From Tremella fuciformis (taxonomy: Eukaryota; Basidiomycota; Tremellomycetes; Tremellales; Tremellaceae), in the NCBI GenBank assembly GCA_032768795.1, contig CP136493.1, forward strand, positions 2,356,001 through 2,420,000: a stretch of DNA of 64,000 nt, written 5' to 3'. Both the position numbers and the translations under genes were made by a program. Shown in pieces: positions 39,319 through 63,992 of this stretch. How positions within the stretch are numbered: the first letter of the stretch is position 1; every line of letters begins with the position of its first letter. The notes beneath the pieces are model-generated. The model worked only from the letters and a program-made list of their open reading frames with translations, had not been told where the DNA came from and searched no databases.

Positions 39319-39348
39319 ATGGTGCAATGCATGTGGTATGCATATGTG

Positions 39349-40629: not shown

Positions 40630-40943
40630 GCCCTCCTTGGTGAAGGATTGCCGTACGTAGCGCTGAGCGGTATAGTCTGAGGGTGGCTCGCATGTCTGTT
40701 GAATCAGTGTTCAGTTAGAATGATGATAAGCACAATGCTGCCCGTCTTTGCGACGGAGATGCCGGCTTTAGCGGTTGGTAGTTACGGGATGGCTCCGCAA
40801 GCTCTTCGGCCATCCCCCGTCTCCACGATGTCTTCTTACACGTCATGCATGCAACTGTATGGTGAGGCTCAAACATGCATACGGTGATCGGAGGTGTGTC
40901 TTGCATCCGTCAGAGCTATAGTGCGATGTGCTCGAAGCTCATT
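40630..40943. other. Intergenic region upstream of the ATP-grasp gene
   Basis: This 314-bp region lies between the ATP-grasp start and the stop of the RraA-like gene, both on the minus strand. I see no additional gene or repeat. Confidence 0.35.
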
Positions 40944-42011: not shown

Positions 42012-44614
42012 ATGGCGAGCTCTAGCATCGCGCCTAGTAGCCAGGACGGGTCGACAAAGCGGACATTCACGTCCTGTCGCCGATGCAAGGTCCGGAAGAT
42101 CAAGTGCGACGCCGGGCTCACGGCTTGCACGCCCTGCGTCAAGGCCGGCGCAGACTGCCTGGACGTGACACGTACGGGGCAGGAGGTGCCCCGCAGGTGA
42201 GCCCACCTTCTTTGCAGGATGTAGCTGGGGTGTGCTGAAGCGTGCCAGCGTCAACGTCGAGCTTGGCGAGCGGATCATCTACCTCGAACGCATCATCCGC
42301 TCTCGATGTCCCGACGTCGACCTTTCTGTCGGCCCGGGCGCCCAGGCGATGAAGGAGCTGAGCAGCGACTTTGAGGAGCTGGTGCAGGCGGCCGTCCAGG
42401 CCGGTCAGAGGGATGTACCCGTCATGGATGTGCCGCAGCTGGAAGGATGGGGCCTCCCTCCCGCGGCAGCAGCGCCGGTGCAGCCGATCCTCCGGCCGCT
42501 GGTGTCTGGCTCGATCGCCTCTCCCAACTGGTCCTCTGCGAGGGAGGAGGTGACTCCGCACAAGCGCCAGCGCGACGGCCAGCTCGCCGCCTCGTCCTCC
42601 TCCGAGTCCCCCTCGCACGTCACGTTCAACATGGACGCGTCGCCGCACTCCTCCGCCCCGCCCGACGACCTCTCGCACGAGGTCGGCCTCGTCTCCCTCG
42701 CCGGCTCGTCCGACCGCAAGTACGTCGGGCCCTCGAGCGGCTTCTCATTCGCCAAGCTCATACGCGCCACCATCCAGGCCTCCTTCTCAACCACCACCGG
42801 CGCCGGCTCCGGCGCCGGCGGCACCTCCGAGACGGCCTCGCAGACGGGCATGATGACGCCCTTCGGACAGCGCGCACAGGGCCCCTTCCGCGCGAGTCTG
42901 CTAAGGCGCAGGCTGCAGGACAGCGCGGTCTCGACATCCTTCGCGATGCCCGACCTGTCGGTCGCTGCGACCCTCGTCGACATCTTCTTCGCCGACGTGC
43001 ACTACCAGTTCCCCTGCCTGTATGCGCGCGACTTTTACCGCGAGGTCGAGCGTCTGTACGACGCGGACCTGGCAACGAAGCCCATCGCGTCGCTGAGGCA
43101 GCAGGACCATGTCGCCGTGTATCAGGTGACGATGGTCCTTGCCATCGCTGCCGCCTTCAGCCCGGACCGCTCTGGTGTGGACGTGGGCCCGCTGAGTTTC
43201 TTCAGGAAGGCTATGAGCCACTTGGAGTACGTGGTAGGGGATGTGACTACGCTGGAGAGGACGCAGTGTATCGTCCTCCTCGCCATCTTTGCCCTGTACT
43301 CGCCTTGTGAGCTCGTCACCGGACAGCACTGGTCAATTTGCTGAGATGCCTTCTGCAGCTGCGCCGAATGCCTGGACGCTGTCGTATCACCTCATGGCAA
43401 ACTGTGTGGACCTAGGGCTGCAGAGATACGTCGGACCGGAGAAGCAGATATCACAGGTCGAGATCGACCTGCGCAAGCGTGTCTTCTGGACGGCATACAC
43501 CCTCGACAGGTGGGTCTACCTCTGTCTTGATCAGTCCTCAAGCTGATCGCAGGACTCTTTGTGTGTCACTTGGCCGTCCGCTCTCACTGCGAGACGAGGG
43601 GTTCGATGTGCCGGCAAGTGCCACCAGTCACAACATGATGTGCGCTGACAGAAGTAGATGCCCGCCAACGTCGAAGACGAAGAGCTCGCCAGCCCTGGCT
43701 TCTCCCCCTTCACCGTCAACCCCCTGATCATCACCAACATGTCCCCGTCCATCCGCATATTCGAGATCATGCAAATCTGCACCGACATCAAACTTCACCT
43801 GCACAGAGTGAAGCGCGAAGCCAACCGATTCCCATGGCCGACCAACCTGGCCGAGTTCAGGCAGCGCACGGCGGACCGGCTGGCGGTATGGCGCTCGACC
43901 GCTCTGCTATCCACCACACGCGCGTCGGTACGGGCGACCCTCGAGATGCGGTATCACCAGGCCATGCTCCTGCTCTACCGCCCCTCGCCCGCGTTCCCCA
44001 TCTGCGACGCCGACGCACTTGCCCGGTGCGCCGCCTCGTCCCGCGACCTCATCCTCTTGTCGGACTCGCAGCAGCGCGCGGGTCTGCTCTCGCGGACCTT
44101 TCTGCACCTGCACGAGATCTTCCTCTCTGGCCTCACGCTGCTCTTCTGCCTATCGAAGGGCACCCCGGCTTCTATACCGCCAAACCGGTACGCGCCCGAA
44201 CTGCGCGCGTCCTCGTCTATCCTCGCCGCGCTCAGCGAGACGTGGCCTGAAGCGCGCAACGCCCGTAATATCCTGGACCGCCTGGTCGACACGGTCTTGT
44301 CTACCCCCAGTGCGGCGACTGCCTCTGGCTCCTCTCTGGTCGGCGACATCACCCTCGAGTCCTTCAACGAGACTATGCAGAGCATCCTGGGCGACGCTAT
44401 GCCAAGTATGGACGACAGCAGCGCCCTCTTCAGCTTTGACTCATCCCAGACGTTGACGACCGACTTGTACAACTCGGTACCGTCCAGAGGTCTCCTGTAT
44501 GGCATGGGCGATCTGGGCACCAACGCTTCTTTGCAGGCTCTGTTGGACTCGATGACAGGAGAAGGCTTCGACGATACGTGGGACAGTGCAGGACCTCATC
44601 TCCCTGGCCCTTGA
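42012..44614 (+). CDS. Zn2Cys6 transcription factor with Fungal_trans domain
   Basis: This is a nuclear regulator. The start MASSSIAPSSQDGSTKRTF precedes CRRCKVRKIKCDAGLTACTP (then CVKAGADCL), a standard C6 zinc cluster at residues ~22-50. An intron near 42196-42238 leads to a linker heptad region (ELGERIIYLERIIRSR). A long Ser/Ala-rich region and the PF04082 domain follow: VDIFFADVHYQFPCLYARDFYR, VLAIAAAFSPDRSGV, LMANCVDLGLQRYV, RKRVFWTAYTLDR, and SLGRPLSLRDEGFDVPMP. A further helical region (RIFEIMQICTDIKLHLHR) and an acidic C-terminus with QALLDSMTGEGFDDTWD complete it. Codon use turns strongly to C at third positions here and stays so across the isocyanide synthase region. It is the leftmost candidate pathway regulator of region D and could instead serve region C. 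Confidence 0.85.
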
Positions 44615-45055
44615 GTCTGCTCGACAACCGGATCTCGGAATCGCCTCTTTCCTTCGGGTTGATCAGGGGGTCGTTGGCTTCGACCACGGTAGCACAGCAC
44701 CGCAGTCACATGTAGTGCGGCGCAAGAGCTACATGCCATTTGCGGCCTGACTACGGCAGAAGACACGTCGTTATCCCGGTGCACATGGTGCGCGGCGGAG
44801 ACATACTCGTATGTCACCGCAGTGTGTAGTACAATGTGTCCGACGTCATCAACATAATCGTGATCACCGCAGATGATCCCGCAGACAACGTCGATGTGAT
44901 ATGCCGCATGCGAGGTATGATGGTGGCTCGATGTACACATGCACGCTCCCAGCCAATGACTGACTTGTTCTTTGAATAGTCTGACGCAGCCTAGGTTGAC
45001 GTCCCTCCCGGACCTGAGCTCCTGATCTCACCTTCAATCCCTCGCCGCAACAATC
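44615..45055. promoter_or_regulatory. Upstream region of the P450 gene with GGCGGAGACAT site
   Basis: No gene is seen. GGCGGAGACAT at 44794-44804, on the plus strand, equals words upstream of the glycosyltransferase (48587-48597) and the Atg22-like gene (54599-54609). It lies about 250 bp before the P450 start. Confidence 0.5.
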
Positions 45056-46830: not shown

Positions 46831-46942
46831 GACGCCGCGCCTTGCCCCGTACACATCGCTCATGCATCTCGACTTTCATACTAGGTCATGTTTCTGCCCT
46901 TCTGTACAGACATTGGTCAGCAACCTTTGCGTACGGGTCCCA

Positions 46943-48480
46943 TCACAGATTGGCCGTCCACGCCGCCCAGGCCTTGGCGCTCGTTCCATGCTCCTCCCAC
47001 GCGTCTTTCAGAATCTGGCGCGCTCGCACAGCCCCAGCTTGATACTCAACCCACCCACCACGGCCAGAGGCAAAGTCTTGCAGGTCTTCGGTGAGAGTGT
47101 GCACGTCAAAGTGCCGGCCGGCGCGATACTTCTCTTCCACGACCCGTGCGTTGAGCGGGTGGTCGGCGCCAAACGGGCGGAGCAGCATAGGGACTATCGT
47201 AAGCTCTGGCCAGCACAGCTGCGACTTACTTCCTTCGGCGAGAGACTCGAGGACCGAGTTCCACCCCGCGTGAGAAACGAACAAGCCCACGGCTCCTGAG
47301 GCTAGTACCGCGCGCTGTTTCGCCCAAGCAAGGACCAGCCCTTGTCCCTGCTCGACCACCTCGTCAAGTACAGCGCGAGCGGTTGTCCCACCATCCGCTT
47401 CCGCCGCCGACTCGGTCAGAGCGCACCCTGCCCATACGAAAGGAATTCCGGAGGCCTTGAGCGACTGGACGAGCTGTACGGTCTCGTCGAGGGGGAGGGT
47501 GTTTCCCGATCCCATGGCGATATAGACCACAGACCCCGCCTTGTGCTCCTGCAGGAAGCTGACGAGGTCGTCGCCGAGATGGTCAACTTGGGCCGTCACA
47601 TCCTTGGCCGCCGACTGTACGGAGCCGATGGCGAGGACAGGTACCGGAATAGACGTGTGGACAGGCTGGAGCAGCCCCAAGGCACTGGCGTCAAGGAGAG
47701 AGGCGGTGTTCACGAGCAAGTCGTCGGACGCAGCGACGAGCGCGGCAAACCCTTTCGCCAGCCATATCTGCCGCTCAGCATCGGGCAAGAGCTGAGATGG
47801 TCCTCTGGAGGTCGACTTACAGTCGGACTCTTGGTCGTCAACTTGGCCTCGCCGAACACCTTGACGACCTCGTTGGGCTCCCCAACCGTCATATAGTCGC
47901 CGAGCACGATCGCCTGACCCTCGCCGCCTTCCTCTTTGTCAGTGAACAGATCCTCGTCGCCCTTTTCTTCGGCGAGTGTCGCTCGATGAGCCAGTTGAAG
48001 CGTCACGACGGCCCCGAGGACACCGGTGTCCATGAAGGTCGTCCACTTGATCCCGAGCTCTTTGGCGATGGGCGGCCCGAAGAAGACGAATGGCGAGCCG
48101 ACAATGCGAGTGATAGGTTCAGCTGGGGGAAGAATCCTCCCGGAAAGAGCGTCTGTGATGAGTTGATGACCCTTGGCGAGGGCCCGGAGGCGCTGCTCGG
48201 TCGGAGCGATCATCTGGTGGTACAGGTTCATGATTGCCCCGCCTACGCCCTTGGACATGTCTTCCCACGTGATGCTGCCCTCGTGGGGCAGCGCGGCGAT
48301 TCGCAGGTTGTCATGGTGCAGTGCGGCGAGATCGCCGCTGTCCCTCAGCTTGGTGAGTGGGACATCGGACGCGATGAAGGTGCAGAGGATCCCGGAGGAC
48401 GCTGCCTTGTGCGCCAGGTAGAGCAGGGGCAGGACGTGCCCGAGAGCAGGGACGGCGATGAAGACAAGGTGAGGGGACAT
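46943..48480 (-). CDS. UDP-glycosyltransferase (GT1 family)
   Basis: It transfers a sugar from UDP-sugar to a small acceptor. The start MSPHLVFIAVPALGHVLPLL is the typical N-terminal strand with the catalytic-type GHVLP element. Then come LYLAHKAASSGILCTFIAS, PHEGSITWEDMSKGVGG, and VFFGPPIAKELGIKWTTFMDT. After one intron near 47800 come LVNTASLLDASALGLLQ, AGSVVYIAMGSGNTLPLDET, VLAWAKQRAVLASGAVGLFVSHAGWNSVLESL (the UGT signature W...Q..L......F.SH.G.NS), and FGADHPLNARVVEEKYRAG. The D/Q-end of the signature is modified (PFGADHPLNAR). Only one or two introns are present. There is no signal peptide or C-terminal helix, so it is likely cytosolic. It would glycosylate the product of the neighbouring synthase and P450. 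A TATATA lies about 40 bp before the start. Confidence 0.85.
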
Positions 48481-48585
48481 GGTGTCGCAGCTTGCCTGGA
48501 CATACTGTACATCTATGCAAGAGCTATATACATGATGTCGGGTGCTGAGGCGGTGTCGAGCTGCGTACGGTAGCACATGATCTCG

Positions 48586-48599
48586 GGGCGGAGACATTC
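48586..48599 (+). promoter_or_regulatory. GGGCGGAGACATTC element upstream of the glycosyltransferase
   Basis: This 14-nt word is identical, on the same strand, to 54598-54611 upstream of the Atg22-like transporter. It lies about 106 bp before the glycosyltransferase start; the transporter's copy lies about 123 bp before its start. Chance identity of 14 nt at matching positions is unlikely. Confidence 0.6.
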
Positions 48600-48602
48600 A
48601 TC

Positions 48603-48630
48603 TGATCACTGATCACTGATCACGGATCAC
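48603..48630. repeat. Four tandem TGATCAC units overlapping the isocyanide synthase stop
   Basis: Three exact TGATCAC units are followed by GGATCAC. The last unit contains the TGA stop codon of the synthase (on the minus strand). The array ends 123 bp before the glycosyltransferase start codon, so it could be part of that promoter. Confidence 0.8.
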
Positions 48631-50483
48631 ACAGCCAAGCGATAGAACATGCCCTGTCCAACGGCATCCTCGTCCGCACGGACGAGCATGACCTCGTGGT
48701 CGCTCGCAGCGAGCTGGGTCAAAACTCGCCGCTTGACAAATACGTACCCGCCGTACGGCAGCTCGAGCACGACATTGTGCCACGGCGTGGGGATATGGAA
48801 GTTGACGCCGGCCGCGCTGCTGCCCGCTGCCCCGACCTCGCCGGGTGGCCGGAAGGACGGGTGGAGAAGGCTGATGGCGAACTTGGGTCCCGAGTTATCG
48901 TGGCTATAATGATCAGCCCCGCTTCCCATGTCACACGAGGGCATACGGGTGGATGCTGAACCGGATGGCGGCTGGGAAGCGGGCCTGCACCAGGCTCGAG
49001 TACGCCTCGTTGCGCTGGAACGTGAGCGCAGCTACAGAGCAACGCACGTGCCGCTCAAGAGCGACTGTACTCACCTGGATCATCCACTTGGCAGTGTCCC
49101 ACGCAGCCTTCCTACGCTGGTTCAGAGACAACCGGCGCACACCCGGATGCTGTGCCGTGTCCTCCAACACAAACCTTGAGAACCTGACGCTCAGTTTCTT
49201 GCCCGAACCGCTGTCGATTCGGTCTACTCGCCCACGGCACAGTCCCATGAGGGCAGGATTGGCAGCCAGCCGCGCGTCCAGCTCGCCGTCCTTCCCAAAC
49301 ATATCCATGAGCCACATTCGCCCCATCTCCGCCTCGTGCGTCTTCTTGGTGACTATCACGCCCTTGCCGATCGGCTCGGACCGCCCCTCAAGCGAGAGGG
49401 GCGTATTGGCAGGACGGTCCAGGAGGTCGTCGAGACCCGCAAAGGTCACTTCGTTCGGGGCGAGAATCGTGCCGGCCATCAGCTTGAGGTGCTTGTTGTA
49501 CAGATCGACCGTGTGATCGTCCGTACAGACTGAGAGTCAGTGTGGTTCCTGGTGCAGTGGGTGGAGGTCTAGACTCTTTGGAGATGGACGTACCCAGGTC
49601 TGAGAAGACGTGCCCGTCGCTAACGATAACGACTGTGATTCCTGGTGGGTAGATCTCCCGCACGGTGTCGATGAACAGCTTGAGCGTGCGAAGGGCGAGC
49701 TCTTCCCCTTTGTCAGGCAGCACGCCCGAGACTTTGTCCTGGGATATCAGCCTGCATAACGCACTTCGGGTGGGAACTCACCAGGTTGCTGCTCTTGCAT
49801 GGAAATGCTGGCAGGACAGCGACCAGAGGCAAGTCACGCTGAACATAAAATGCGACCTGCCGCGCGAACATGTTTCGGCCGCCAGCAGGGCCCGAATTGA
49901 ACCAGCGGTCGGTCTGAGGCGTGTACTTGAGGTGCGCTTCATAGCACCTGACAATGTGCTCGACCACTTCTTCCCGGCCGGAGATGTTAGTGGAGGTGAT
50001 GTCGTTGTCGTGTCCAAATTGGGCCAGTCGCTGGGCGAGTAGGCACTGATCCGCGAGATAGCGAGCAGAAGCGAGAGCGATTGATATAAGGTGTTCGGTA
50101 GAGGCGGGAAGTTTCCCTTGGATCGTGGCGGTTTTGGTGGTGAGGGCCACGCCGTATACGCCTGTCATATTTCCAAGGGTGATCACGCCGTATCTGGTAC
50201 TGACGGGGTGAATGGCATTTTTGTCATCGACCAAAGTACCAGTGGCGGACCCTCCGCTTCTGGCCCCTTCTTGCAGGCAGTCCCTCAGGACACGAGCTTC
50301 CAGCTCGAAGCTCGTGTACTGGGACGAATCTAAAGACCAGACCAGAGTCTCTTGATCGTGTCCCGTGAGTCCTCTGTCATGAACGTTGGTGGCCGAGGCG
50401 TCAGGCGAGAGCGCACGGAAGATGATGGCCCTGACGGTGGCAGGGTGGGCATCTGTCGGGTGGTCGTGCGAAGTCTTGGTCAT
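48627..50483 (-). CDS. DIT1/PvcA-type isocyanide synthase
   Basis: This family converts an amino acid amine and a ribulose-5-phosphate carbon to an isonitrile; yeast DIT1 uses tyrosine to make the dityrosine precursor. The start MTKTSHDHPTDAHPATVRAI begins a ~500-residue protein. Blocks are DRWFNSGPAGGRNMFARQV, DLPLVAVLPAFPCKSSNL joined across a 45-nt intron to DKVSGVLPDKGEELALRTL, YPPGITVVIVSDGHVFSDL (hallmark SDGHVFSDL), and CTDDHTVDLYNKHLKLMAG. Then RSEPIGKGVIVTKKTHEAEM, LMGLCRGRVDRIDSGSGKKL, RNEAYSSLVQARFPAAIRFSIHPYA, TPWHNVVLELPYGGYVFVKR and GMFYRLAV follow. The FPCKS, LPD.GEELAL and SDG.VFSD elements are those of PF05141. Four introns are seen. A TATA-like CTATATAG lies about 100 bp upstream. 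Neighbours are a P450, UGT and methyltransferase, so it is the probable core of a secondary-metabolite cluster. Confidence 0.88.
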
Positions 50484-51017
50484 TGTTGAGATGTCGAGGT
50501 AAGCAAGAAGAGCTGTATCAACGCTGATGAGCGATGCACTGGCAGGTGGTCGGCTGGGAGGTGTAGCTGCAACTTATGTACTCTATATAGTGAGGCATTT
50601 CCACACGCCAAGCAGTGGTCTCGTCTATCATCGCCTCGAGTTCCCTGCGGCAATTCGTGCGCCGCACTGTTGGTGGGACAATGAATCGGTTGGCCGGTCC
50701 TCCGGAGAAACGCATGTGGGTACAGATGTACGCAGGTACAGTTCGGATACGGAAGCGAGACGCCGAAAGGTGTGTCCGTCCAGTGTACGCCGTCGCCGAC
50801 GTCGCCAGGTATGAAGTAGTCACCGCTCGGAGATGGCTGGAGGAGCGGTGAAGTATCCGTGCGCCAAGTTGCCGAGCGAGGCGAGAATGCTCCGCGTGCG
50901 ATATCTCCGCTATCACGGCAATCACACTCACCCGAAGCCACTATCCGAGGAGTTGCAAGTGTCAGACAAGTGTTGTTGGATGGGTCATGCATGCACTCTA
51001 GCTGTCCCCCATGATGC
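50484..51017. promoter_or_regulatory. Upstream region of the isocyanide synthase
   Basis: This 534-bp region holds CTCTATATAGTG near 50581 (a TATA-like element). CCTCCGGAGA near 50699 shares only CGGAGA with the cluster motif. I did not find the full GGCGGAGACAT word here. There is no gene. Confidence 0.45.
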
Positions 51018-52116
51018 TTATTGACCCTCGGGTTTCTGCGCGTACGCAGTGACAAAATTATGAAAAGCCCGCAGCTCCTCGCACTCATCCAAGACGCGCT
51101 TCCCCCACGCGACCATCTCCTCCCGCGTGATGCCCCACGACTGCGACAAGACCGGCGCGAGCGTCTCCACGAGGCTCAGGTAGTCGTGCACCATGAGCTC
51201 CCCCAGCGCGCCCGCTTTGGTGCTCATCGGCACAGAGACGACCTGGTCCTCTGGGTGCGCGAAGCCCGCTGCTGCGAGGTACTCTTTCAGCTTGAGCCCC
51301 GCGAGCGGCTCGCCGCCGCGTTTCTTGAGTGACCCGCGCATCCCTCTTCCTCAGCTCTGATATTCCGTTCCCGCTCTGACGAACGGGAAGTAAGACTCAC
51401 CCCGCTCGTTCCAGTCCTGGATGGTGGCTGTGATGCCGACCGCACTGCGCAGCTGGCCGTCCGGCTCGGTCATCTGCACCCACCCGCCGGGCTTGGTGAT
51501 CCTGTACAGCTCGCGCGTGGCGACCTCCCACTCGTCGGCCTGACCATCAGCCCCGTCCCTCCAATCATCAGCAGCGAGACTCGCCTTCAGCCCCCCGGTG
51601 AAGAAGCGCATGTGCACAAAGTCGAAGGAGTCGTCCTCGTATGGGAGACGCTGCAGGACATTCCCAATCTCGAACTGCACCCCATCTTCCTTGGCAGTCT
51701 TGTAGGTCGGCGCAAAGTCGGTCGCAAACGGGTGGACGAGCGGATAAGCGCACTTGACCTCGCGTATCCAGCTTCCGGGCCCGCAGCCCACGTCGACCAC
51801 CCTCCCACCGTGGGTCAAGAGGGATTGGCGGATGGGCGCGACGACGGGCCCGGCGAAGAGGTGCATCATGAGTTTGTGCTGGTGTTCGAGGCGGTCGTAT
51901 TCTTTTCCATCGGCAGGCAGGGCGTAGATGCTCTGCCAGATCAGCTCTTGGGCCATAGAACGTCTGGGCGAGACGCAGACTCGCCTCCTTGTTGGCGTGG
52001 TAGAGACGTGTCTCGGACCCTGGGACGAGGTGCAGACCCGCCACGACGGTTGGAGGAGCGGCATCGCCACCATTGGAAGCGGTATCGTTCGCACGGTCTA
52101 GGTCCGGCTGAGACAT
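51018..52116 (-). CDS. SAM-dependent methyltransferase (LaeA/small-molecule type)
   Basis: This is a class I methyltransferase. The start MSQPDLDRANDTASNGGD leads to VAGLHLVPGSETRLYHANKEA. A frame change follows to LIWQSIYALPADGKEYDRLEHQHKL. Then come LTHGGRVVDVGCGPGSWIREV (SAM motif I, VDVGCGPG), ATDFAPTYKTAKEDGVQFEIG, EDDSFDFVHMRFFTGGL (motif II region), ELYRITKPGGWVQMTEPDG (motif III), and a C-terminal part GELMVHDYLSLVETLAPVL ending AQKPEGQ. The frame change can be explained by a 34-nt intron at 51947-51980 (GTCTGC...CCAAG on the minus strand) or by a genuine frameshift; I favour the intron because a 31-nt intron exists elsewhere in this window. Another intron lies near 51350-51400. It probably methylates the pathway product. 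TATATA lies about 60 bp upstream. Confidence 0.75.
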
Positions 52117-52447
52117 GTCTATCGGGGAAGTCCACTTTGTTCGTCTTGGGCTAATTGACTTGTGTCCCGGAGCCATTATATACTGACGGATCCTTCCAGT
52201 GACACATGTGCTCGCCATTAACGAGCAGCGTGTGACGGAGCGGGGCTGTGTTCAAATCTGATCGGACACATGGGGACGGACGGATCAAGGTGCATAGCGA
52301 GGAACATGATCAGGAAGCGGTGTAGTCTATTGTATGAACTTGGAGATGTCTCCGAGGACCGACAACCGAGGTCGTCTTTGTGGGGACTGATGGATTATTC
52401 TCAAGGCATGTATGGATCTGCGGTGCATGGAATGACGTGCTCGGTCC
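52117..52447. promoter_or_regulatory. Upstream region of the methyltransferase with inverted CGGAGACAT
   Basis: ATGTCTCCG at 52346-52354 is the complement of CGGAGACAT, the nine-base core of the cluster motif. Here it lies in the opposite orientation to the motif at 48587 and 54599. TTATATAC near 52174 is a candidate TATA element. No gene is visible. Confidence 0.4.
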
Positions 52448-54475
52448 TCAGTGGCCGAGGGACGACTCGGCCTGTGTGCGCTCCGCAGCCACCTCGACCA
52501 CCTCCTCGCGCCGGATAGTGGCAACGCCACTCGCGTCGTCCATCCAGTACACCATGAACGTGGACGTGAGGAAGAACACAAAGGCAATGACTGCGTGTCA
52601 GCGAGACGGGTGGGTGGCAGAGAAGGAAGGACCGACTCGCCGGGAGACGCTGGTTGTTCGTAGCCTGCACAATGGGGCCGTCGACAATCTGAGGGATCCA
52701 CACGGTCGAACACGACAACACCAGCTGGAAGCCAAAGTACTGGATCTCCGAGCCCTTCGGGAAGAGCTCGGGGAAGAGCACCCTGAAAAGGGGCGCAAGG
52801 ATCGAGCCGGCGATGTTCTGCAGCACCTGGAAGACGTAGAACTCGGCACGGTGCTTGAACCCGATCGGGCTGTGCTTGTTGATGCCCAGCAAGCACCACA
52901 GTGCGATGAACGCCACGAGGGCGTAGCACGCGATCGCCCATTGGCGCAGGGTGAACGGGAGGCGGGGCTGGAGGTACAGGAAGGCGGTGGCGCCGATGAG
53001 CGAGGTGACGGTGCCGACGACGCTATAGGCGGTGTATTCCACCAGGCTCGGCCGCACGACGTTGTTGAAGAGCGTGCCTACGATGTCTTTAGCTGCACTT
53101 CTGTGATGCGACCTGAGGACTCACCGATCACTGTGCCAAAGGCGAACGCCGAGTCGTTGTAGATTGTATAGGCCAGCAGGAACTTGAACGCCTCGGGGTA
53201 TTGGTAGATGCCCTTGAACAGGTTGGAGACTGATTGTTAGTGAGAGTAGACTTTGAGGCGGGGGAGGTTACTCGTGATGAAGGGCAGCTTCCACACCGGC
53301 GTGCCAGCTGCAAACGGCTTGCCGCTCGGCGTGGGGAGGAAGCGCCACCCAGCAAGTGCGCAGAAGATACAGATCCCACCGGCCACAGTGGTCATGTACA
53401 GCCCCGCATACAGCGACGCCTTGTAGCTCGCGTACACGAGCCCGATGGTGATGCAGTAGAAGATGACCAGGCCGACGTTCATCGAGTTGCCGCCCCACAC
53501 CGACATCTTGAGCCCCTCGCGCTCGCGCACCGTCCGCAGCCGCGCCGCCTCGTCAGAGTCGGCCGTGTGCCCCGAGGCGATCATCTCCTTGGCCGACGCG
53601 CTGAGCGTCTCGATCGGCGCGCTGTTCTGCATGGTGTACGGCACGAACACGTTCATCCATGCTTGCACGAGGAACCCGATGATGTTGAAGATCGAGTAGA
53701 GCACGGCGAGCGCGTTGAACACGGAGAGCTTGTACGCTGTGAGGCCGGCGGCGGGCAGGCAGAGCGCGCCGTACGCGACGAGGCCGAATACGTATTGCTC
53801 GCGCTTGAATGCTGCGGTCAGCCTCGCTTCCCCGCTTATCACGTTGTGCACACACAGAAGTGGTCGCCGATGCCGCAGACGAGCAGGGTGAGAGCTCCGC
53901 TGACACCGTAGGAGATGGCGTTGAGGTACTGGCTGTCAGCCTGCTGCTCACACGCTTCCTGCGAGGACGACACTTACGAGGAAGACACTGGTCAGGTTGA
54001 TGTCCCTGCTGCCGAACGGGACGAGACACGGTGCGTCCAGCGACAGACACCCACTGCCTTTGGGCATGCCGGGGTTGTACTGTTGTTCAACGCGTATCCA
54101 CCGAAGCAATGTAAGGCAGACTCACCCCGATCCCGGGGCCAAAGTAGGCAATCTGCTGCATTTGAAAGGTCATGAACTGCACCGCGCATCCGAAAGCTGG
54201 GCCGATCTACACTGATCAGCCTCACTACAGCGACCTCGATGAACGTTGAGACTCACGCCAAAGGTGGTCACGGCAAACGCGATGCTGTAGCGCTTGAGCT
54301 GTGGCGCGCTCACGGCGGTCGCATGCGCTTCAGGCGCAGGCTGGGCCGTGTAGCTGTCGGACAGCAGGTCCTTGGCATCTTCCTCGGCCTTCTGCCGATG
54401 GTCGGAGTAGGAGAGCTCGTCGTTCAACGAGGTGGCCTGCAGGGTGGCAGGGTTCAGGCTGAGGTCGACCGGCAT
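52448..54475 (-). CDS. Atg22-like major facilitator transporter
   Basis: This is a polytopic transporter of the Atg22 family, whose yeast founder exports amino acids from vacuoles. The start MPVDLSLNPATLQATSLND is followed by KRYSIAFAVTTFG joined to IGPAFGCAVQFMTFQMQQIAYFGPGIG. Then come SLDAPCLVPFGSRDINLTSVFL, YLNAISYGVSGALTLLVCGIGD, and LTAAFKREQYVFGLVAYGALCLP. VLYSIFNIIGFLVQAWMNVFVPY, WGGNSMNVGLVIFYCITIGLVYA, YPEAFKFLLAYTIYNDSAFAFGTVIG (the family's LAYxIYNDxxF), LRQWAIACYALVAFIALWCLLG, and FPKGSEIQYFGFQLVLSCSTVWIPQIVDGPIVQATNN complete the core. It ends VAAERTQAESSLGH. About six introns are needed. In a cluster it could export or sequester the metabolite. The long + frame across 53234-53911 is a shadow of it. 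Confidence 0.8.
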
Positions 54476-54858
54476 GGCTGTCTGCTCGCTCGAGGATCTC
54501 GCTTGTTCTGATTGCCAGGGTACACTTGTTGGTGATGGGAAGAGAGGAGAACACAAAGAGGTCGTTGAGGGACGTTGATGGTGTGGAATGGTGTTGTGGG
54601 CGGAGACATTCCAGGTGTGTGCAGTATGGTCTCACATGCTACCATCCCTCTTGTATCTGTCCGTCTTTCGGTCACTTGCTGCGGAGCGGACGAGTGGCCG
54701 TGTACTTACGACGACAGTCTATCCTTCTACACGGACTCAGCATCTCCGTCGTTGTCCGAGAGGTAGATGAAAGAGAGGAGAAGACCATCGCTCTTGGCAG
54801 CACCTAGCCTCGACCCGGTTCAATCGCTGAAAGCTGAAAGTCTCTGTCGCTGCTCAAG
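54476..54858. promoter_or_regulatory. Divergent promoter of the Atg22-like transporter and the ABC exporter
   Basis: This 383-bp gap separates the two transporters. It contains GGGCGGAGACATTC at 54598-54611, exactly as at 48586-48599. One element may serve both genes. Confidence 0.55.
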
Positions 54859-57800
54859 ATGGGAGCATTGCAAGATGTGCTCGTGCCATTCCGGTATGCG
54901 ACACGTACAGAAATCATACTCAACACGCTCGGCCTCGTAGGGTGCATCGGCGCAGGAGCAGTGCAGCCGTTGATGAACATCCCGTTCGGCTCGGCACGTC
55001 CGCCGGCTGTGAAGAGGCATGAGCTGATGTTGGGCAGATCACCACAGACCTCGTCGACTTTGCCCATGCCAGCCAGGCAGACCAGCATCGTACAAACGAC
55101 CACATTGTCATCTTCTGCTACCTCGGTGAGTACTCCGGCAGCAGGCTTGTCGCCCGTCCTAAGGGGCTTAGCCGTCGGCTCGTTCGTCGCGACGTATACG
55201 TATGTCTCGCTATTCGTGTACACCGGCGAGACGATCACCAGCCGCATGCGCTCACGAAGTATCAAGAGTATACTGTCACAGGTGATTCGCAGACTCTCTG
55301 ACGGTTGTTGAGGTCTGCTCACCGCGGACAGGAGCTCGCGTACTATCAGGATGGCCAGGTCTCCAAGCTCAGCTCGGAGATGCAGTCAGACCTCGAGACG
55401 ATCCAGTCGGCCATCAGCGAGAAGCTCCCCTTGAACGTCATGTACATCTCCTGTGCTGTCACCGGCTTCATAGGTACGGCCATCAAGTTCCATCCAGGTC
55501 TGACCGTGCTGAGCGAAAAGTCGCCATTATCAAAGCGTGGAAGCTGGGTCTGGCTCTATTGTCAATGCTGCCCTGCCTCCTCTTCCTGGGCTACGTCGTA
55601 CGCGCCAGTACTTTACGTGGCATCAGAACTGACTTCCGAGTTTACCCACTTTGGCTTCGCATACATGGGCAAGGTCAGTGCCATGCTCGCCCCAAGCAGC
55701 TCCCTCGCCCAAGAAGCCTTATCGGGCGTCTCGACGATTCAGAGCCTCGGCGCGGAAGATCGCATAGTGGGCGAGATCCACCAGCGCCATCGCTCCGCGC
55801 TTGTCATTGCCGCGAGGAAGAACTTGATCTTTGGGCTCGCCATGGCAGGTATCACCTTTGTCATCTATTCCGGATACTCGTTGTGCTTTTTCTTCGGCGG
55901 GGAGCTGTTCCGGAAAGGCGAGATCGATGCTGGGGCTCTCATCACCGTCTTCTTGTCGTGAGCCACGAAGTCACCGTCTGGGATGGAGCTGGTCTGATGG
56001 ACAGTGTTATGATGGGCAGCTTTGCCCTGTCGCAAGTCCCCAGTAGTCTCTCCGGTGCGCGACAGTTGTGTAACTCGTGCGTAGTAGCTGACCCGTAGTC
56101 TTTCTCGCCGCTGTCAAAGCTGCCACGAAGCTCGACGCTCTCATTCAGCGGGTACCGCTGCTTGAGAGCACACCCCATTTCACTCGAATCATGGAGCTCA
56201 AGACTGAGATACGTTTCGAAGACGTATCGTTCAGCTACCCATCTCGACCCGACCTGCCAGTTCTACAGCAGCTCAACTTGCAGATTCCCTTTGGCAGTAC
56301 CACCGCCATCGTCGGCCTATCCGGGGCTGGCAAATCTACCATAGCCTCTCTGCTACTCGGTCTTTACAGGCCAGATAGCGGCAAGATCAGATATGACAAT
56401 ACCGACTTGGCAAATATCGACCCGGCATTCCTCCGTGGGGAGATGGTCGGGTCGGTACTGCAAGAACCAAAGCTGTTCTCCAGCACGGTCCGCGAGAATG
56501 TCGCCAAGGGTCTCAGTCCCCAACAACGTCTCTTGCCAGCAGAGGAGCAGAGCGCTCTCATCATCGCGGCGTGCAAGCGCGCCCAGGCGCACGACTTTAT
56601 CTTGCAGCTCGGGCAGGGGTATGAGACGCAAGTAGGCGAATGGGGTGCCAGTCTGAGTGGCGGACAGCGGGCGCGGATCGCCATTGCCCGAGCTCTGGTC
56701 CGTGATGCCCCGATCTTGTTGTTGGACGAGGCCACTGCCAATCTGGATACGCTGTCGGAAAAGGCATTCACCGATGCGCTCATGGATGCCGCCGTCAACA
56801 GAACCCGTACTACCGTCAGGACTCTTGCTCGGGGTCGGTGCGTGTCCTGACTGACTTGCAGATCGTCATTGCGCATAGGCTCGGAACGATCAGGAACGCC
56901 GACAATATCCTCGTGCTATCTCAAGGCCGACTCGCCGCTTCCGGCACCCACGATGAGCTCATGGCGGATGAAGATGGATTGTATCGGAAGCTTTATGGTG
57001 TTGAAGCCCATGCGAGCCGGTCCGACACGGAAGTCTCCACGACGCCAAGCACAGAGGAGGATGAGAAGCCTCAAGACCTTGCCTTGAAAGAGCTTGACAG
57101 CTCGGCGGCTACGCTGCCGGATGCCGTGCACAAGGGGCCCACAGATCGGCAGGACTCGCAGTATGTCTCGACCTGGACGTATATGAAGGGCATCTACAGG
57201 CATGGGACTGGCGCTTGGTCGTTGACCATGCTAGGCATCGGAGGCAGTATAGGCAAGTCCAATACGAGACACAGCACGCGGGCGCTGACATGACAAGTGG
57301 CTGGACTCTTGTATCCCGCGTTTGCGTGAGCTATATGAATCGTCTTTGATGGGAGACTCACACTCAGGATCGTTTACGCTGCCGCGTACAGTACATTCGG
57401 GACCGATCCAGAAGATGGTAGCAAGCAGTGAGTACATAGTCTGCCGGTATCCCTACGTTTGCGGTACTGACAGCAGAAATCTCAACGCCCTATGTCAGTC
57501 CCCTCGACTCTGTTGTGAACCCGGGGTCAGCTGACGAGCCAAGACTTCTTCATCTTGGCGATTGTCGGCACCCTCGCTCTGACCATGCAGTGGTACGGCC
57601 TCGGCTACGCATCAGACCGTCTCGGGTGCTACCTCCGCGAGGCGATGCTGCGCAGTGTCCTCCGGGCCGACATGCCGTGGTTGGAAGAACCGGACAACGA
57701 CTCGACGCGCCTGGCGGCAATTGTCAACTCGTCCCCAGGCCAGCTGTCCTCTTTCGTCGGAACGGGGTTCGGGACATTCGTCACGAGCGTGGCGACGCTC

Positions 57801-59369
57801 GTCGGCGGCGCTTGCGTCGGCCTCGCCTACAGCTGGAAATTGGGCCTCGTCAACATCGTAAGATCCCCCAGCCGGACCGTTGACGGCGTTGACGCCCAGG
57901 CGGTGCTGCCTCTCACACTCGGTACGGGCATCGTACGGCTCAAAGTGGTCGATGCCCGCGAGGCCAAGTCGAGAGCGGACCACGCGCCCTCCGTGCGTAT
58001 AGCCAACGAAGCTGTCAACCAGCTGCAGACTGTCAAGGCGTTAGCGGCGGAACAGCTTGTATACGACGAGTATCACTCCACGTTGATCCGGTCCAGTGCC
58101 CAGACCATCTCGCGTGGGTTTCTATCGACAGTACTGTTCGCGCTGGCGCAGACGAATATGTATTTCGTCATGGCGCTGGGGTTCTGGTATGGCAGTCGGC
58201 TCGTGTACTCGGGCGAGATCTCCCCGAGGGCGTTCTTTGCTGTCTTCGTGAGTCTCGACCCCCCGGCATCCGTGTATCACACAAAGCTGACAGTGTAGAC
58301 TGCGGTGGTGTAAGTCGACCCTCTGTCGTATGGCTCTCGTATTGATAGGGACCAGGGCAGGATCGTTCCAAGCCGCCAACGTGCTCTCCCAAGCGCCAGA
58401 GCTTTCCCAAGCACACAGCGCAGTGCGCGATATCGGCCGACTCCTCTCCGCGCCCGGTCCAGCCGGTCCACAAGGCGACGCCCCGTTCACCGCGGCAGAC
58501 CTGTCCCTCCAAAATGTCACATTCAGCTACCCATCCCAGACCACTCACCCTCATACGACACAACGAGTGCTCGACAATGTCAGCCTCGTAGCGCCTCTAG
58601 GCAAGAACATCGCCCTCTGTGGCCCCTCGGGGTCGGGCAAGTCCACCGTCATCCGCCTGGTACAGCGCTTCTACCGTCCCGACTCGGGTGTGGTCGCCCT
58701 GGGCGATCGGCCGGTGGAGGCGTACGACCGCCAGGGGTATAGGGATAGGATATCGCTCGTCTCGCAGGAACCTGTCCTTTTCAACTTGACCATCCGCGCG
58801 AATGTACTTCTCGGCGTGCCACATCCGGCGGCGAAGGATGGTGAGAGATATGATGACCTCGATGACCAAGTGTGGGCTGCGCTGGACCGGGCGAACCTCG
58901 CCACTTTTGTCCGTGGTCTGCCTGAGGGTGAGCAATACGTCATGTTAAATTACGCTATACGGTGGCCTCTGGCTGAGACTGCAGGCCTCGACACCGAGCT
59001 AGGGGCAAAGGGAGTGGCACTCAGCGGAGGTCAACGTCAGCGCCTCGTACTAGCCAGAGCGCAAGTCTTCCCCTGCACAAGGTGCTCGGACTGACGTTCA
59101 GGCTCATGCGAAACCCCGCGATACTCTTACTGGACGAAGCTACCTCCTCTCTGGATAGGGAGAGCGAGCGTACTCTCCAAGCTGCACTGAGTAACATGAT
59201 CCAGCACGGCTCACTGACCGTCTTGACGGTCGCCCATCGCCTCGCTACGATCCGCGATGCCGAGCGTATCTACGTCCTGCAGCATGGCAGAGTCGTCCAG
59301 AGCGGGAAGTACGACGAGTTGACCGCGCAAGAGGGGCTCTTTGCTGCTCTTGCTGCTGAAGGAAGTTGA
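54859..59369 (+). CDS. Full-length ABCB (MDR/P-glycoprotein-type) exporter
   Basis: This is a plasma-membrane pump of TMD-NBD-TMD-NBD order. The start is [19 protein letters not shown]. The first TMD includes [18 protein letters not shown] and [34 protein letters not shown]1 has [40 protein letters not shown] (Walker A), [18 protein letters not shown] (Q loop), [17 protein letters not shown] (signature), [12 protein letters not shown] (Walker B) and IVIAHRL (H loop, joined across an intron near 56800). The linker is acidic. TMD2 has [23 protein letters not shown] and [21 protein letters not shown]2 has [86 protein letters not shown] and [11 protein letters not shown]. Roughly ten introns interrupt it. 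Both nucleotide sites appear catalytically complete. It is the likely efflux or self-protection pump of the cluster. It is convergent with the regulator at 59439. Confidence 0.88.
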
Positions 59370-59438
59370 CGTGGCACTCAAAAGAGAGGTGATTGTGCAT
59401 ATGTACTTTAGACGCATGTCATTGTCTAAGACCAGTAC

Positions 59439-61122
59439 TCAGGAGCGCTCTTTCAGCTCATCCAACAGACTGTCGAGTTGCCGCCGAGTGGCTTCTAGTC
59501 GCGTTTGCACCCCATGTACCCTGTCCATCAGCCTTGCATCCACGCACGAAGAGCAGTGAGACGCACCATTCGTCGGTGCTCGACTTGGATTGGAGCACAG
59601 ACAAGACACGCCGCACCGCGCGTTGAAGCGCTCCCAGCTCCAGTCTGACAGCCATAATACCCAACAAAACCCCAACTGATCCTCTTGCTTCGTACTCTCC
59701 TACTCCTATCCCCCCTCGCCGCCCCATAGCATGTGGCTGTGTTGAGATGGAGATGCCAGCGGACCATGCAGACTTGTTCGACTCGTCACGCACAACTATC
59801 ATGTATTGCGCGTGGATCTGCGAGACGAGATTGAGTACCGAAGCGATCGCGATGGGTGTAGAAGGATCCAATAGGCATTGCTGGCACTGCTCGGCCGAGC
59901 CGCAGGTCGCGGAGATGCCCTGGGTAGAGAGGAGTGTGCGTTCGGCGACGAAAGACAGGGTCGACGAGGTCGACGGCGACCCGACGTCCATGTGCAGTCC
60001 AGTATCCGTGCAAGCGGCTGTCCTCTGCGAGGCGATGCACCGCAAATGGGTGCGGAGGCTCTGGAACAGATTCGAGGAGTCGCAAAAGCACGGCGGCACA
60101 GTGGTTGGGATTGCCTCGCCAGGGATGTTTTCGCCAGGTATGGTAGCACGGTGTGGAAGGGAGAAGCACACAGGAGTCGGTATACCCGCTGAGACCGCTT
60201 CGACGGAAGCGCCAGAGATGCTGCTACCTGCCATACCTGACGAGGAAGAGTGAGTCTCGATAGGGACAGTCTTGATGCCTGGCTGAGAGAGGTCGATATC
60301 TGGCACGTCCGTGATTCCACTTGCAGCAGACAGCCACCCTTGTAGATCCTTCATCCACTCTGTCTTCTGACACGACGTCGAGGGTCCGGACGTAGCTTCG
60401 CTCGTTATGAAATTCGTTGTCCAGGGCATGAGCCCTGTCGCTCCGCTCGCAGGTGTTATCCCAGTCTCATCAAGGGATCTGCCGTTGTTGCAGCTCATGC
60501 TTAAATTCCCTGAGATAAGATCGCCAACCCCGACGCCGTATCCGAATGAATCGACCGGGGTTTGGTCGAATGAGGAGAATGGCGTCCATAGAGACGAGAC
60601 GCGGTATGGAGACGAGGTGACGCCGGTGTACGGCGTAATGGGAAGGGACGAGTCGGAATGCTCGCAAGGTAAGCTAGTCGGTGGTGGATTGCCACGGCCG
60701 GGTCCAGTGTCATGTCGCTGAGTGTCGGGCCGGCGACCGGTGCTTGGTGGGTGCGGTGAGAGAGTCCCGGTACGTCGACGTTTCGTGGTGCTAGGCGTCT
60801 CTGATGCTGACGGTCTCGATGTTCGTGGACGTCCCATGGGACGCTTGGCGCCTGCTCATCAGACACATGCCAGACATTCGACATGATGAGGTAGATGCTC
60901 ACTGAACGTGCAGGACAGACCCTTGAGGCGACACCTCGTACAGCTAGCTCCGCCTGATTGCATGACAGAAGCCTGCTCCGATCCTCCCACGCCCTCAGCG
61001 AGGTCGTCCGTCCGCTCTTCCACCCCGCTGCATCGCAGTTTACGACCCCGGCACTGATCGCACGATGCGCGGAGCAGAGGCGACGAAAACTCTGCTGGAG
61101 ATGCAGACATGGGCGTGGACAT
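59439..61122 (-). CDS. AflR-like Zn2Cys6 regulator
   Basis: This is a pathway-specific type of regulator. The start MSTPMSASPAEFSSPLLRAS leads to CDQCRGRKLRCSG. A ~60-nt intron, then GASCTRCRLKGLSCTFS, completes the C6 cluster (C-x2-C-x6-C, C-x2-C-x6-C). After another intron comes a Ser/Thr/Pro-rich middle (RPRTSRPSASETPSTTKRRR). The C-terminal helical region has LFQSLRTHLRCIA, IASVLNLVSQIHAQYMIVV, and VGVLLGIMAVRLELGALQRAVRRVLSVLQSK, resembling the AflR-type domain that follows such zinc clusters. The last exon probably reads ARLMDRVHGVQTRLEATRRQ to LKERS after splicing near 59550. The same type of factor controls many fungal metabolite clusters. It lies immediately 3' of the ABC exporter (69 bp between stops). 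Confidence 0.78.
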
Positions 61123-61839
61123 CCTGAACTGGGCTACAGAGGTGCTTGAGCGTGCTCGCTGAGGACTGCGGATGGGACGAATGGGTCTGATGGGTCTGGG
61201 CTGAGAAGGGATCCGCCAGTCCGTCTGTCGTCAGCTTATGTGACCTGACCTGGGACCTGCCTACGATAAGCGAGTCATTCACCATGACCACTGCGGATTG
61301 ATCACGCCTCGGTACGCGCCATGCTGATCGGCCGACGGCGAGGAGGGGGAGCGACCGGCACCTGGGCGCTGCTGCCGAGGATCCTGGACGGACAATCTTG
61401 TCACGACGTCCCCGGGGTTGTCCAGTGGGACGGAGGGAGGGGTGGAAGGGCTGAGTCGGGGAGAGGGGGATTGCAACATTCCATGCTGTGCTCGTTGTCC
61501 AATTCGGTGCATGAGCTGCTATTGGCTGCTTTGGCGAACGGGTCGATGTTGGACGAAAGAGCAAAAGGACGCAAAGGAGGGAGGCAATAACCACGGAGAT
61601 GATGACCGGATCAGCGGTGATGGGGCTGGTCGTGATGGTGACCGACGTGATGATGGCCGAGACGGGGACAAGTGGGTCAGCCTAGTGCCTTAGTGACTAC
61701 CCCGGGGAGGACTAGGACATGAGAAAAGAAGATACTGGGTATGATGACGACCCGAGGGAGACACATGATTGGATATGGGTACCGTGTGGGCTTGGACGAA
61801 TTGTGATCTCATGTTCAGGCTCCACATGCATGTCAATGA
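61123..61839. promoter_or_regulatory. Long upstream region of the AflR-like regulator
   Basis: These 717 bp lie between the regulator start and the stop of the kelch gene. Open frames on both strands are Arg/Gly- or Ser-rich and show no family features, so I treat them as non-coding leader or promoter. A purine-rich GAGGGGGAGC tract lies near 61342. Confidence 0.4.
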
Positions 61840-62952
61840 CTACTGAGTACTCAAGATCCACCCATCACTCAGCCTCTCGTTCTTCGCATTGAGACCTCCC
61901 CAAACAACAATCCTGCTCCCATCGCCAGTACCAGCAAACCAGCCCCTGGCTGTGGGCTTGAGGCCCGTTGTGACCGACTGCTCCCACACCCCAGAAGTGG
62001 TCTCGTACATCCATACGTCGTCCCAGAAATTACCAGCAGCATCGTGTCCGCCAGTGTGCGACGGCTTGCCCTCTCCGAACAACGTCACGAGCTTGCCAGC
62101 GATTGGAAGCAAGGCATGGACCGATCGTGCGCCAGGAACCTCTCCTTCAGAGATGAGACCATCGATGTCCTCCCTGCCGAGGCCCGCCGCCTGGCCAAAG
62201 GGTCGTGTCTGCCAGCCCTCACCGTCGCCGTCACCCGTCTGGTTCAAGTCGAGACTGTCGATAGAGCCGCCTATCTCGGTCTTGCCGTTGAAGCCGCCGA
62301 AGCGAAAGAGCTTGTTGTCCAGGAACGCAATAGAAGTCCCACCACGACCGTCTCCAGGCGCATCGGCAAGCTGTGTCCAGACCTGAGAGGCAACGTCGAA
62401 GGCCCAGGTGTCGCGTAGTCTGCCCGTGGAAGCGTCGCCGCAGCCAGCGTGGACGATCAAGCCGGAAGAGGTCGTCGTCGCTGCATGATACGATCGAGCG
62501 CATGGGTACGTCGCCGAGGAGGGGGTGAGCTTGGTCCAGGTGGAAGTGCTGGGCGAGAAACGGTACACTGCGCCCGCTTCTTCCAACGGCGTCATCGATG
62601 GCCCACCTCGCTGGCATGAGCTATGGCTGTATCGTGCTTGACAGACCGCTCACGCCACCAAAGACATAGATGTTGCCATTGATCACACCGGCGACGTGTC
62701 CGACCCGCGGCTCTGGGACATCACCTTTACCGTGTACTCGCTCATACTTGCCGGTCGTGATGTCGACGACGTGCACGTCGCCATCGACCGGCTCGCGAGG
62801 GGTGATCTCGCTTTGAGTCAGCTATAAGCACCCTCACACGAAAGATCAACTCACCCGCCATAGATATACACCTTGTTGCCGATGAGGCAAATACTGTGGG
62901 ACGAGCGGGGTAGCTCGCCCTTGATACGAGTCCACTTGAGCGGGGTAGACAT
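61840..62952 (-). CDS. Kelch-repeat beta-propeller protein related to nitrile/epithiospecifier proteins
   Basis: This is a six- or seven-bladed kelch propeller of ~325 residues. The start MSTPLKWTRIKGELPRSSHS leads to ICLIGNKVYIYGG, VHVVDITTGKYERVHGKGDVPEPRVGH, VINGNIYVFGG, YRFSPSTSTWTKLTPSSATYPCARSYHAA, WAFDVASQVWTQLADAPGDGRGG, and IAFLDNKLFRFGGFNG. Then ARSVHALLPIAGKLVTLFGEGKPSHTGGHDAAGNFWDDVW, SGVWEQSVTTGLKPTARGW and RIVVWGGLNAKNERLSDGWI follow. Each blade shows the G-G and Tyr/Trp spacing. The GEGKPSHTGGHDAAGNF segment is similar in layout to the iron-binding loop of plant specifier proteins, with Glu and His present. Introns occur near 62610-62640 and 62830-62855. It has no secretion signal. 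Next to a nitrogen-carbon triple-bond synthase cluster it could modify the product, but that is inference. Confidence 0.78.
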
Positions 62953-63203
62953 CTTACAGGTCCGAGTTGTTTATATAGTGCACCGTTCAGTCCTCAGTTC
63001 ATGATGAAGAGGAAATGCATGGGGGAACGGCGCTGTGGAGCGACGAATCGTACGACTCGACAGTGACCGTCGAGTCCTCGTTGGTGACCAGCAAGTCCTC
63101 GTCAGTGACCAGCCAGACCGCGACGTCCGAGAGACCCTCCTCGACGTCTTAAACGTGGTCAGAGCAGCTCAACGTGCATGCCCCTCATGTCGTCTACCAC
63201 TCT
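62953..63203. promoter_or_regulatory. Upstream region of the kelch gene
   Basis: TTTATATAGTG at 62970-62980 is a TATA-like word within about 20-30 bp of the ATG, unusually close. GACCGTCGAGTCCTCGTTGGTGACC-like near-repeats (CCTCGTTGGTGACCAGCA, CCTCGTCAGTGACCAGCC) stand at about 63075-63115. No gene. Confidence 0.4.
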
Positions 63204-63992
63204 CTATGAGAAATCCTTGTACCCGACTCCCTTCACGAAGGTCTGCTGCCACGGTCCTTGGGCTTTCCCTTCTGCCAGCTCTACGTAGTGTTTCCCGTGG
63301 GCTTCTCCGTCGATGCCTCCCATCGCAGGGGCGCCATCAGCCTTGCGCTCGTCCGCATAGTAGAACCTGCTCGTTAGAGAGCTCGACGAATAGCAGAAGC
63401 GCTGAACACCCACTTGTAGCCCTTGTCCTTGAACACCTCGGAAGCGGCGTTGATCATGTTCGCCGTGGCAGCTTTGCCCACGCCCAGCGTCAGGACGATC
63501 GGCAGGACCTTGACATTGGTGCAGTTGCCCGTGTAGATGAACGTGCGTGACGCCGTGTCTGACAGCTGGGCGAACCCAGCTACCGCCTCTTGCGCCGCGG
63601 CATAGACGCTGGTAGTGTTAATGGCCAGGTCGCCCGTAAAGTCGGCAAGGCTGGGCGACAGTGGGTTCTGGGGATTTCCAGGGTGGGCAGCGCCAGCTTC
63701 TCCTCAGCGAACCAGACCTTTGAGAGACAAGAGGCACGACAGACTGACCGTTGTACACCACGACGCTCGGGATGCCCAGAGCCGACTTGACCTTTGAGAA
63801 GATTCCCGGGATCGACGAAGGGTCCGACAGATCTCCGCCGATATGCACTTGTTCCTGAGCCCCGCTCTGGAACTCCTTCGGGTTCCGGGAGACGAGCGCG
63901 ATCTTGTACCCCTTGGATGCGAATGCTCGCGCGACGCCTTGGCCGATGTTGGCGCCGGCGCCGAGGATGAGTACGATGGGGGAGGAGGACAT
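63204..63992 (-). CDS. Short-chain dehydrogenase/reductase
   Basis: This is a Rossmann-fold oxidoreductase. The start MSSSPIVLILGAGANIGQGV carries a GAGANIGQG nucleotide motif. Then come FASKGYKIALVSRNPKEF, GGDLSDPSSIPGIFSKVKSAL, and GIPSVVVYN. After an intron come LADFTGDLAINTTSVYAAAQEAVAGF, TFIYTGNCTNVKVLPIVLTLGVGKAATANMINAA (a GKAA element replacing the usual YxxxK spacing), and FYYADERKADGAPAM. It ends KGVGYKDFS. The canonical Tyr-x3-Lys is not seen at the expected place (the block reads GVGKAA), as in a fungal atypical SDR subgroup. Two introns are present. The gene reaches the right window edge and is complete. Its relation to the isocyanide cluster is uncertain. Confidence 0.78.

Follow-up and report, generated by a model that had tools for sequence, protein, structure and literature searches.

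A candidate six-gene cluster around a Dit1-type synthase and a Dit2-like P450 in a Tremellomycete-like fungus

Does a basidiomycete carry a dit1–dit2 pathway, and what might such a pathway make? The question is raised by a stretch of 64,000 nucleotides of Tremella fuciformis DNA (the window; C4:2356001-2420000 in a genome of 28.1 Mb in 11 contigs), in which the gene for a Dit1-type synthase lies near that for a Dit2-like cytochrome P450, the kind of pair that serves the dityrosine spore wall in Saccharomyces cerevisiae. In a survey that recovered synthase genes from 3,300 fungal genomes, dit1 and dit2 lie together in 17.1% of the ascomycete species, another 11.2% have both genes at separate places, and a dit cluster is stated to occur in no basidiomycete (Nickles et al., 2023; PMC10153163). 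The locus says otherwise. With moderate confidence, we read it as a dit1–dit2 module, inherited within Basidiomycota, that has grown into a six-gene co-regulated cluster (45056-59369) in a Tremellomycete-like fungus.

The synthase gene (48627..50483, minus strand) has six exons encoding 532 residues. The first-pass annotation had given exactly this span and had pointed to the blocks FPCKS and SDGHVFSDL, both of which are present. The product matches PF05141 at 247 bits (profile 2-266 of 273; Pfam cut-off 26.4), and a search of the 28.1-Mb genome with this family gave two exon matches, both in this gene, and no other gene. Its model, adjusted to agree with the database protein P0001, is identical to it over 532 residues, and PF05141 is the sole Pfam domain in P0001, which makes it a single-domain synthase. 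The source contig of P0001 has 1,787 bases against 1,857 from start to stop in the genome; being shorter than the gene, the contig is spliced and thus most likely derived from RNA, and it also confirms the third intron (49184-49231, 48 bp), which is of the GC-AG type. The fold of PvcA and the PvcA/PIsnA motifs are present, and the window residue agrees at all 50 columns that are invariant in 29 other sequences, a column being counted when 18 or more of the 29 have a residue there. Directly past the stop codon, between the synthase and UDP-glycosyltransferase (UGT) genes, lies a TGATCAG-like short repeat (48600-48626).

The descent of the synthase was read from a tree of 45 eukaryotic Dit1 proteins (from 120 listed) rooted on 11 bacterial homologues, these being what remained of 15 picked from 80 loci once four that had no usable frame in a motif test were left out; the rows include no xan/crm-type fungal synthases. 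The window synthase falls within the eukaryotic Dit1 clade and outside the bacterial one. It belongs to a clade of seven Tremellomycete-like rows (100/98) nested in a basidiomycete clade of 11 (100/97), which lies next to 24 ascomycete Dit1 proteins (100/99), with chytrid genes outside. The synthase is a Dit1 orthologue. The first-pass annotation had proposed that grouping with DIT1 orthologues, together with a lack of synteny of the neighbouring genes, would speak against a cluster, and the grouping is indeed what the tree gives. Because the basidiomycete dit1 genes form one clade beside those of ascomycetes, with chytrids outside, the dityrosine module seems to predate ascospores.

The same records hold several further observations. 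Three Dit1-type records of Selaginella moellendorffii (P0019, P0027 and P0034) group into a separate clade placed amid the chytrid rows. At positions 282 and 441 (P0001 numbering), Dit1 proteins of ascomycetes mostly read FSDC and SIHAH, and basidiomycete, chytrid and Selaginella proteins, where complete, FSDL and SIHPH; exceptions noted are Ascobolus (FSDL), Lophium (FSDN) and P0049 (SIHCH). Extra domains occur in some Dit1 records, namely DJ-1/PfpI in P0052 and P0092, a major facilitator superfamily (MFS) transporter in P0044 and P0061 (chytrid Cladochytrium), and PF04145, which we take to be a copper transporter, in P0074 (Collariella). Some of these may be gene-model errors; the records bear on whether Dit1 makes an isocyanide.

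The P450 gene (45056..46830, plus strand) was modelled by us as six exons encoding 517 residues; the model has no transcript match, and a protein search gave no identical database copy. The product passes the Pfam p450 cut-off (110.8 bits) and contains FHGGARACPG and AGHEN, presumably the heme motif and helix I. Its identity is 56% to a 'Cytochrome P450-DIT2' of Vanrija pseudolonga, 55% to another Vanrija P450-DIT2, 42% to a Tilletiaria protein, 38% to one from Tilletia and 36% to Aspergillus proteins, one of them named xanG. The P450 tree has 18 rows, the window protein and 17 of its 18 matches (P0137 was left out). In it the window protein groups with the two Vanrija and two further proteins (96/94), then with the Tilletiaria/Tilletia pair (95/98), so that the P450 beside the synthase groups with DIT2-named Vanrija and Tilletia proteins, in a tree that holds no ascomycete Dit2 of known function. 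Vanrija belongs to the Trichosporonales (Tremellomycetes) and Tilletiaria to the Ustilaginomycotina. Records of dit1 and dit2 come from equal-sized contigs in V. albida (3,975,977), Tilletiaria (155,449) and another relative (15,930), which suggests linkage in all three and closeness in the last. The CYP56 matches retrieved from PMC4633277 are to four-digit CYP56xx families.

Around this pair stand four further genes. The order across the locus is TF1, P450, UGT, synthase, methyltransferase, ATG22-like, ABC, TF2, kelch and SDR, on strands + + - - - - + - - -, and the gaps within the six-gene core are 112, 146, 534, 331 and 383 bp. Exons were modelled gene by gene and then corrected by hand, and automatic models of the whole window, which had merged genes, were dropped; eight products were scanned whole against Pfam and kelch as an exon piece. 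The frames of the six products are intact. As the first-pass annotation had it, the P450, UGT, methyltransferase, Atg22-like and full ABC genes are contiguous with the synthase, and all pass their Pfam cut-offs.

The UGT gene (46943..48480, minus strand; three exons, 482 residues) encodes a plant-like UDP-glycosyltransferase (Pfam UDPGT, 58.7 bits) whose best match among solved structures is a cyanohydrin beta-glucosyltransferase (7zer). Its model was likewise adjusted to P0139, to which it is identical over 482 residues; the contig of P0139 (3,349) fits a spliced or a genomic origin. The class I S-adenosylmethionine-dependent methyltransferase (51018..52116, minus strand; three exons, 329 residues) passes the cut-offs of Methyltransf_11, 23 and 25; its first intron is modelled as GC-AG (51933-51984), and its N-terminal exon is predicted. 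Matches of this protein to TAL-effector repeats among solved structures were set aside as chance, no stretch having passed on its own. The ATG22-like transporter gene (52448..54475, minus strand; eight exons, 567 residues; Pfam ATG22, 222.5 bits) is a paralogue, as 12 ATG22 exon matches lie over several loci of the genome, the strongest at C4:1417805. The full-length ABC exporter (54859..59369, plus strand; 17 exons in our own model, with a predicted GC-AG intron at 59061-59101) has 1244 residues and two nucleotide-binding domains, with two ABC_membrane and two ABC_tran stretches.

The promoters of these genes share a word. Its form CGGAGACAT stands at 44796..44804 (plus strand) 252 bp from the ATG of the P450 gene, at 48589..48597 (plus) 109 bp from that of the UGT gene, at 52346..52354 (minus) 230 bp from that of the methyltransferase gene, and at 54601..54609 (plus) in the 383-bp promoter common to the ATG22-like (126 bp) and ABC (250 bp) genes; the synthase promoter has CGGAGATAT at 50901..50909 (minus), 418 bp from the ATG. 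The four copies of CGGAGACAT are all those in the window. The combined form CGGAGAYAT thus occurs five times in the 64 kb, once in each cluster promoter region, and once in 220 kb elsewhere (22 stretches). When five length-matched stretches were drawn from the 220 kb and from window positions 1-41,000, as many 9-mers in at least four of five stretches as observed were found in 2 of 3,000 draws (also 2 for 8-mers); for words in at least three of five, the numbers of draws were 82, 36, 21 and 17 at lengths 8, 9, 10 and 11. The whole genome has 179 copies of CGGAGACAT, against 165 of the reversed control, and four copies in 9.8 kb have a Poisson probability of 6e-7, or 0.0017 allowing for all such spans; since the word was picked after the promoters had been inspected, the random draws are the fairer test. 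The form GGCGGAGACAT occurs 28 times in the genome (control 9), three of them in the window. Upstream of TF1, TF2 and kelch, and in the next 20 kb rightward, CGGAGAYAT is absent; within the window confined to the five promoter regions, the word delimits the unit as 45,056-59,369, and it favours a presumed co-regulation of the six genes. The locus shares with the dit superfamily (Nickles et al., 2023) a single-domain Dit1-clade synthase and a promoter motif common to the cluster genes, the latter recognised post hoc.

Regulator-like genes lie on both sides of the core. TF1 (42012..44614, plus strand), a Zn2Cys6/Fungal_trans regulator (Fungal_trans 54.9 bits, Zn_clus 27.4 bits), adjoins it and is a possible regulator of the cluster, its own promoter having no CGGAGAYAT. 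A zinc-cluster half-site is usually CGG, with which the word begins, and TF1 may be the protein that reads it. TF2 (59458..61122, minus strand) encodes a protein whose cysteine-rich N terminus carries a split motif resembling Zn2Cys6, and its membership is uncertain; one exon gives a partial Zn_clus match (21.4 bits, cut-off 21, profile 2-15) and the whole model no Pfam match, which leaves the label 'AflR-like' in the first-pass annotation unsupported. That annotation had drawn the cluster at 42012..63992; our six-gene core lies within this range, and kelch (61840-62952, minus strand) and SDR (63204-63992, minus strand; named from a reading of the sequence alone) are not shown to belong.

The wider setting can be described briefly. 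The contig ends, in the stretch C4:2484004-2494003, with a telomere-like array of TTAGGGGG, and the cluster, ending 78.6 kb from the contig end, is subtelomeric. Base composition gives no sign of a foreign origin, the GC content of the cluster (0.592) being within one standard deviation of that in 20 random 10-kb stretches (0.572, standard deviation 0.022). The left neighbours (35819-41442) look catabolic, with pieces of a 2-hydroxyacid dehydrogenase, a class II aldolase, an RraA-like protein and an ATP-grasp protein (below cut-off), possibly a sugar-acid pathway. Pieces of a dihydroxyacetone kinase (Dak1) and an S15-family hydrolase lie at 13839-14849 and 28741-29535.

Several results weigh against a six-gene dit cluster. 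The P450 (plus) and synthase (minus) genes of this basidiomycete are convergent, their 3' ends facing with the UGT gene between, whereas yeast dit1 and dit2 are divergent (PMC5974471); the survey uses the relative orientation of dit1 and dit2 as a clan rule (PMC10153163), and the locus, which departs from it, is therefore not a strict member of that paper's three clans. The P450 tree contains neither S. cerevisiae Dit2 nor another ascomycete Dit2 of known function, and in it the Aspergillus rows, one of them xanG, adjoin by a fork that is open. In Tilletia horrida, dit1 and dit2 are on different contigs. CGGAGAYAT was discovered by comparing these same promoters, its 12-mer form shows no enrichment in the window when up to two mismatches are allowed (8 against 6.34 expected; 34 of 100 shuffles had as many), and scanning the same five promoters for palindromes gave a best z of 5.98, below the 95% level of 6.17 in shuffled sequence. 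For the UGT, a protein search gave itself and one relative (46% over 66%, contig 40,517), and no relative was found in Vanrija among the 7,995 candidates sharing most words that were scored, and the UGT may therefore have joined late or be an unrelated neighbour. The results on the UGT and the loose word also suit the view that only dit1 and dit2 matter, yielding plain wall dityrosine among ordinary neighbours, as do the linkage suggested in relatives for dit1–dit2 alone and the other members that the UGT (four UDPGT matches elsewhere), ATG22 and P450 families (32 exon matches genome-wide, window gene included) have in this genome. This view has to contend with an exact word that stands in every one of the five promoter regions and a single time in 220 kb elsewhere, with the UGT gene sitting between two core genes and with the tight spacing, and we think it quite improbable.

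What the cluster makes is the second part of the question. Yeast Dit1 has been concluded to form no isocyanide and most likely to yield formyl tyrosine, and PvcA could not stand in for dit1 in yeast (PMC7345447); in the proposal of Lim et al. the precursor is a tyrosine isocyanide (PMC5974471), and an isocyanide intermediate is likewise proposed by the survey (PMC10153163). With that yeast result and the place of the synthase in the Dit1 clade, the isocyanide synthase activity claimed in the first-pass annotation is unsupported. A true isocyanide cluster, in which tyrosine isocyanide would persist, be coupled or receive a sugar in the manner of rhabduscin or xanthocillin, and be exported, seems rather unlikely to us. 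It would accord with the PvcA/PIsnA fold and motifs, with the methylated xanthocillins and glycosylated isocyanides mentioned in PMC5974471 and with NF045653, the tyrosine isonitrile synthase family, as the synthase's only NCBIfam match, although at 107.7 bits this does not reach the cut-off of 600. The DJ-1/PfpI domain in P0052 and P0092 hints that Dit1 enzymes can meet isocyanides, isocyanide hydratases being usually assigned to that family. Against it stand the Dit1 clade and the failed PvcA rescue, and with them the partners: no TauD/IsnB-type domain was found among the nine products scanned, and the genome search for DJ-1 gave a single match, which lies on a different contig (C1:7192492).

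A route to a decorated dityrosine would run as follows. The Dit1 orthologue would turn tyrosine into N-formyl tyrosine, directly or via a short-lived isocyanide, and the P450 would join two units through their phenol rings; sugar and methyl may then be attached by the UGT and the methyltransferase, phenol oxygens being the simplest sites (the site of each is a guess), and the ATG22-like and ABC transporters would carry the product out of the cytosol, to wall or medium. Tentatively, and as a possibility well short of an even chance, the Dikarya ancestor had dit1–dit2 and Trichosporonales-like fungi rebuilt the pathway towards a secreted glycosylated, O-methylated N-formyl (or isocyano) dityrosine, with a role in the walls of asexual spores or of cells, in metal binding or in signalling.

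How does this compare with known systems? The bacterial isnA/isnB system with its glycosyltransferase (rhabduscin) has the tyrosine isonitrile fold and glycosylation in common with the locus; it needs IsnB and has no P450 coupling, and the window synthase falls outside the bacterial clade. To our knowledge, there is no UGT in the Aspergillus fumigatus xan (xanthocillin) cluster. That cluster likewise has a tyrosine-type synthase, a methyltransferase (XanE) and a P450, XanG, described as a Dit2 homologue, but the partner types of its XanB synthase-dioxygenase and XanA isocyanide hydratase homologue were not found at the window (PMC5974471). With S. cerevisiae the locus shares a single-domain synthase that falls in the Dit1 clade (the tree has rows from Lachancea and the Candida group) and a Dit2-kind P450 beside it; it adds the UGT, methyltransferase, ATG22-like and ABC genes, and no DTR1-like match (Sugar_tr/MFS_1) was found among the products scanned. 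The six-gene DIT1/DIT2/DTR1 cluster of Coccidioides is also one regulated block of dit1, dit2, a transporter and extra genes; it is expressed in spores, and without it arthroconidial walls are thinner, but it is ascomycete, its extra genes differ (a cutinase is named) and its transporter is of another class (PMC12077801). In Aspergillus nidulans, dit1 and dit2 are clustered too (PMC5863032).

Other basidiomycete synthase clusters, for example six in Tetrapyrgos nigripes and five in a Clavulina, are listed in the survey, and a PF05141 cluster in a basidiomycete is therefore not new as such (PMC10153163). Titles and abstract openings yielded no paper announcing a basidiomycete dit cluster, passages of papers on Volvariella, Fusarium and Candida held nothing on one, and a search on isonitrile synthases with a glycosyltransferase and rhabduscin found no paper. 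Public records already include DIT2-named and PF05141 proteins of basidiomycetes, and the novelty therefore lies not in the genes but in the linked, decorated cluster and its position in the tree. The basidiomycete cluster that had been anticipated, with synthase, DIT2-like P450, UGT, methyltransferase and two transporters, is borne out, with Tremellomycetes as nearest relatives and a shared promoter word.

With six genes delimited and a candidate word for their regulation, the locus makes the question of the Dit1 product testable outside yeast. As far as gene content can tell, the cluster points to a decorated tyrosine product in a group where the dityrosine pathway was reported missing. Were the pathway indeed rebuilt towards such a secreted glycoside, it would stand as the first of the dit kind in basidiomycetes and would add a new class of tyrosine-dimer glycosides.

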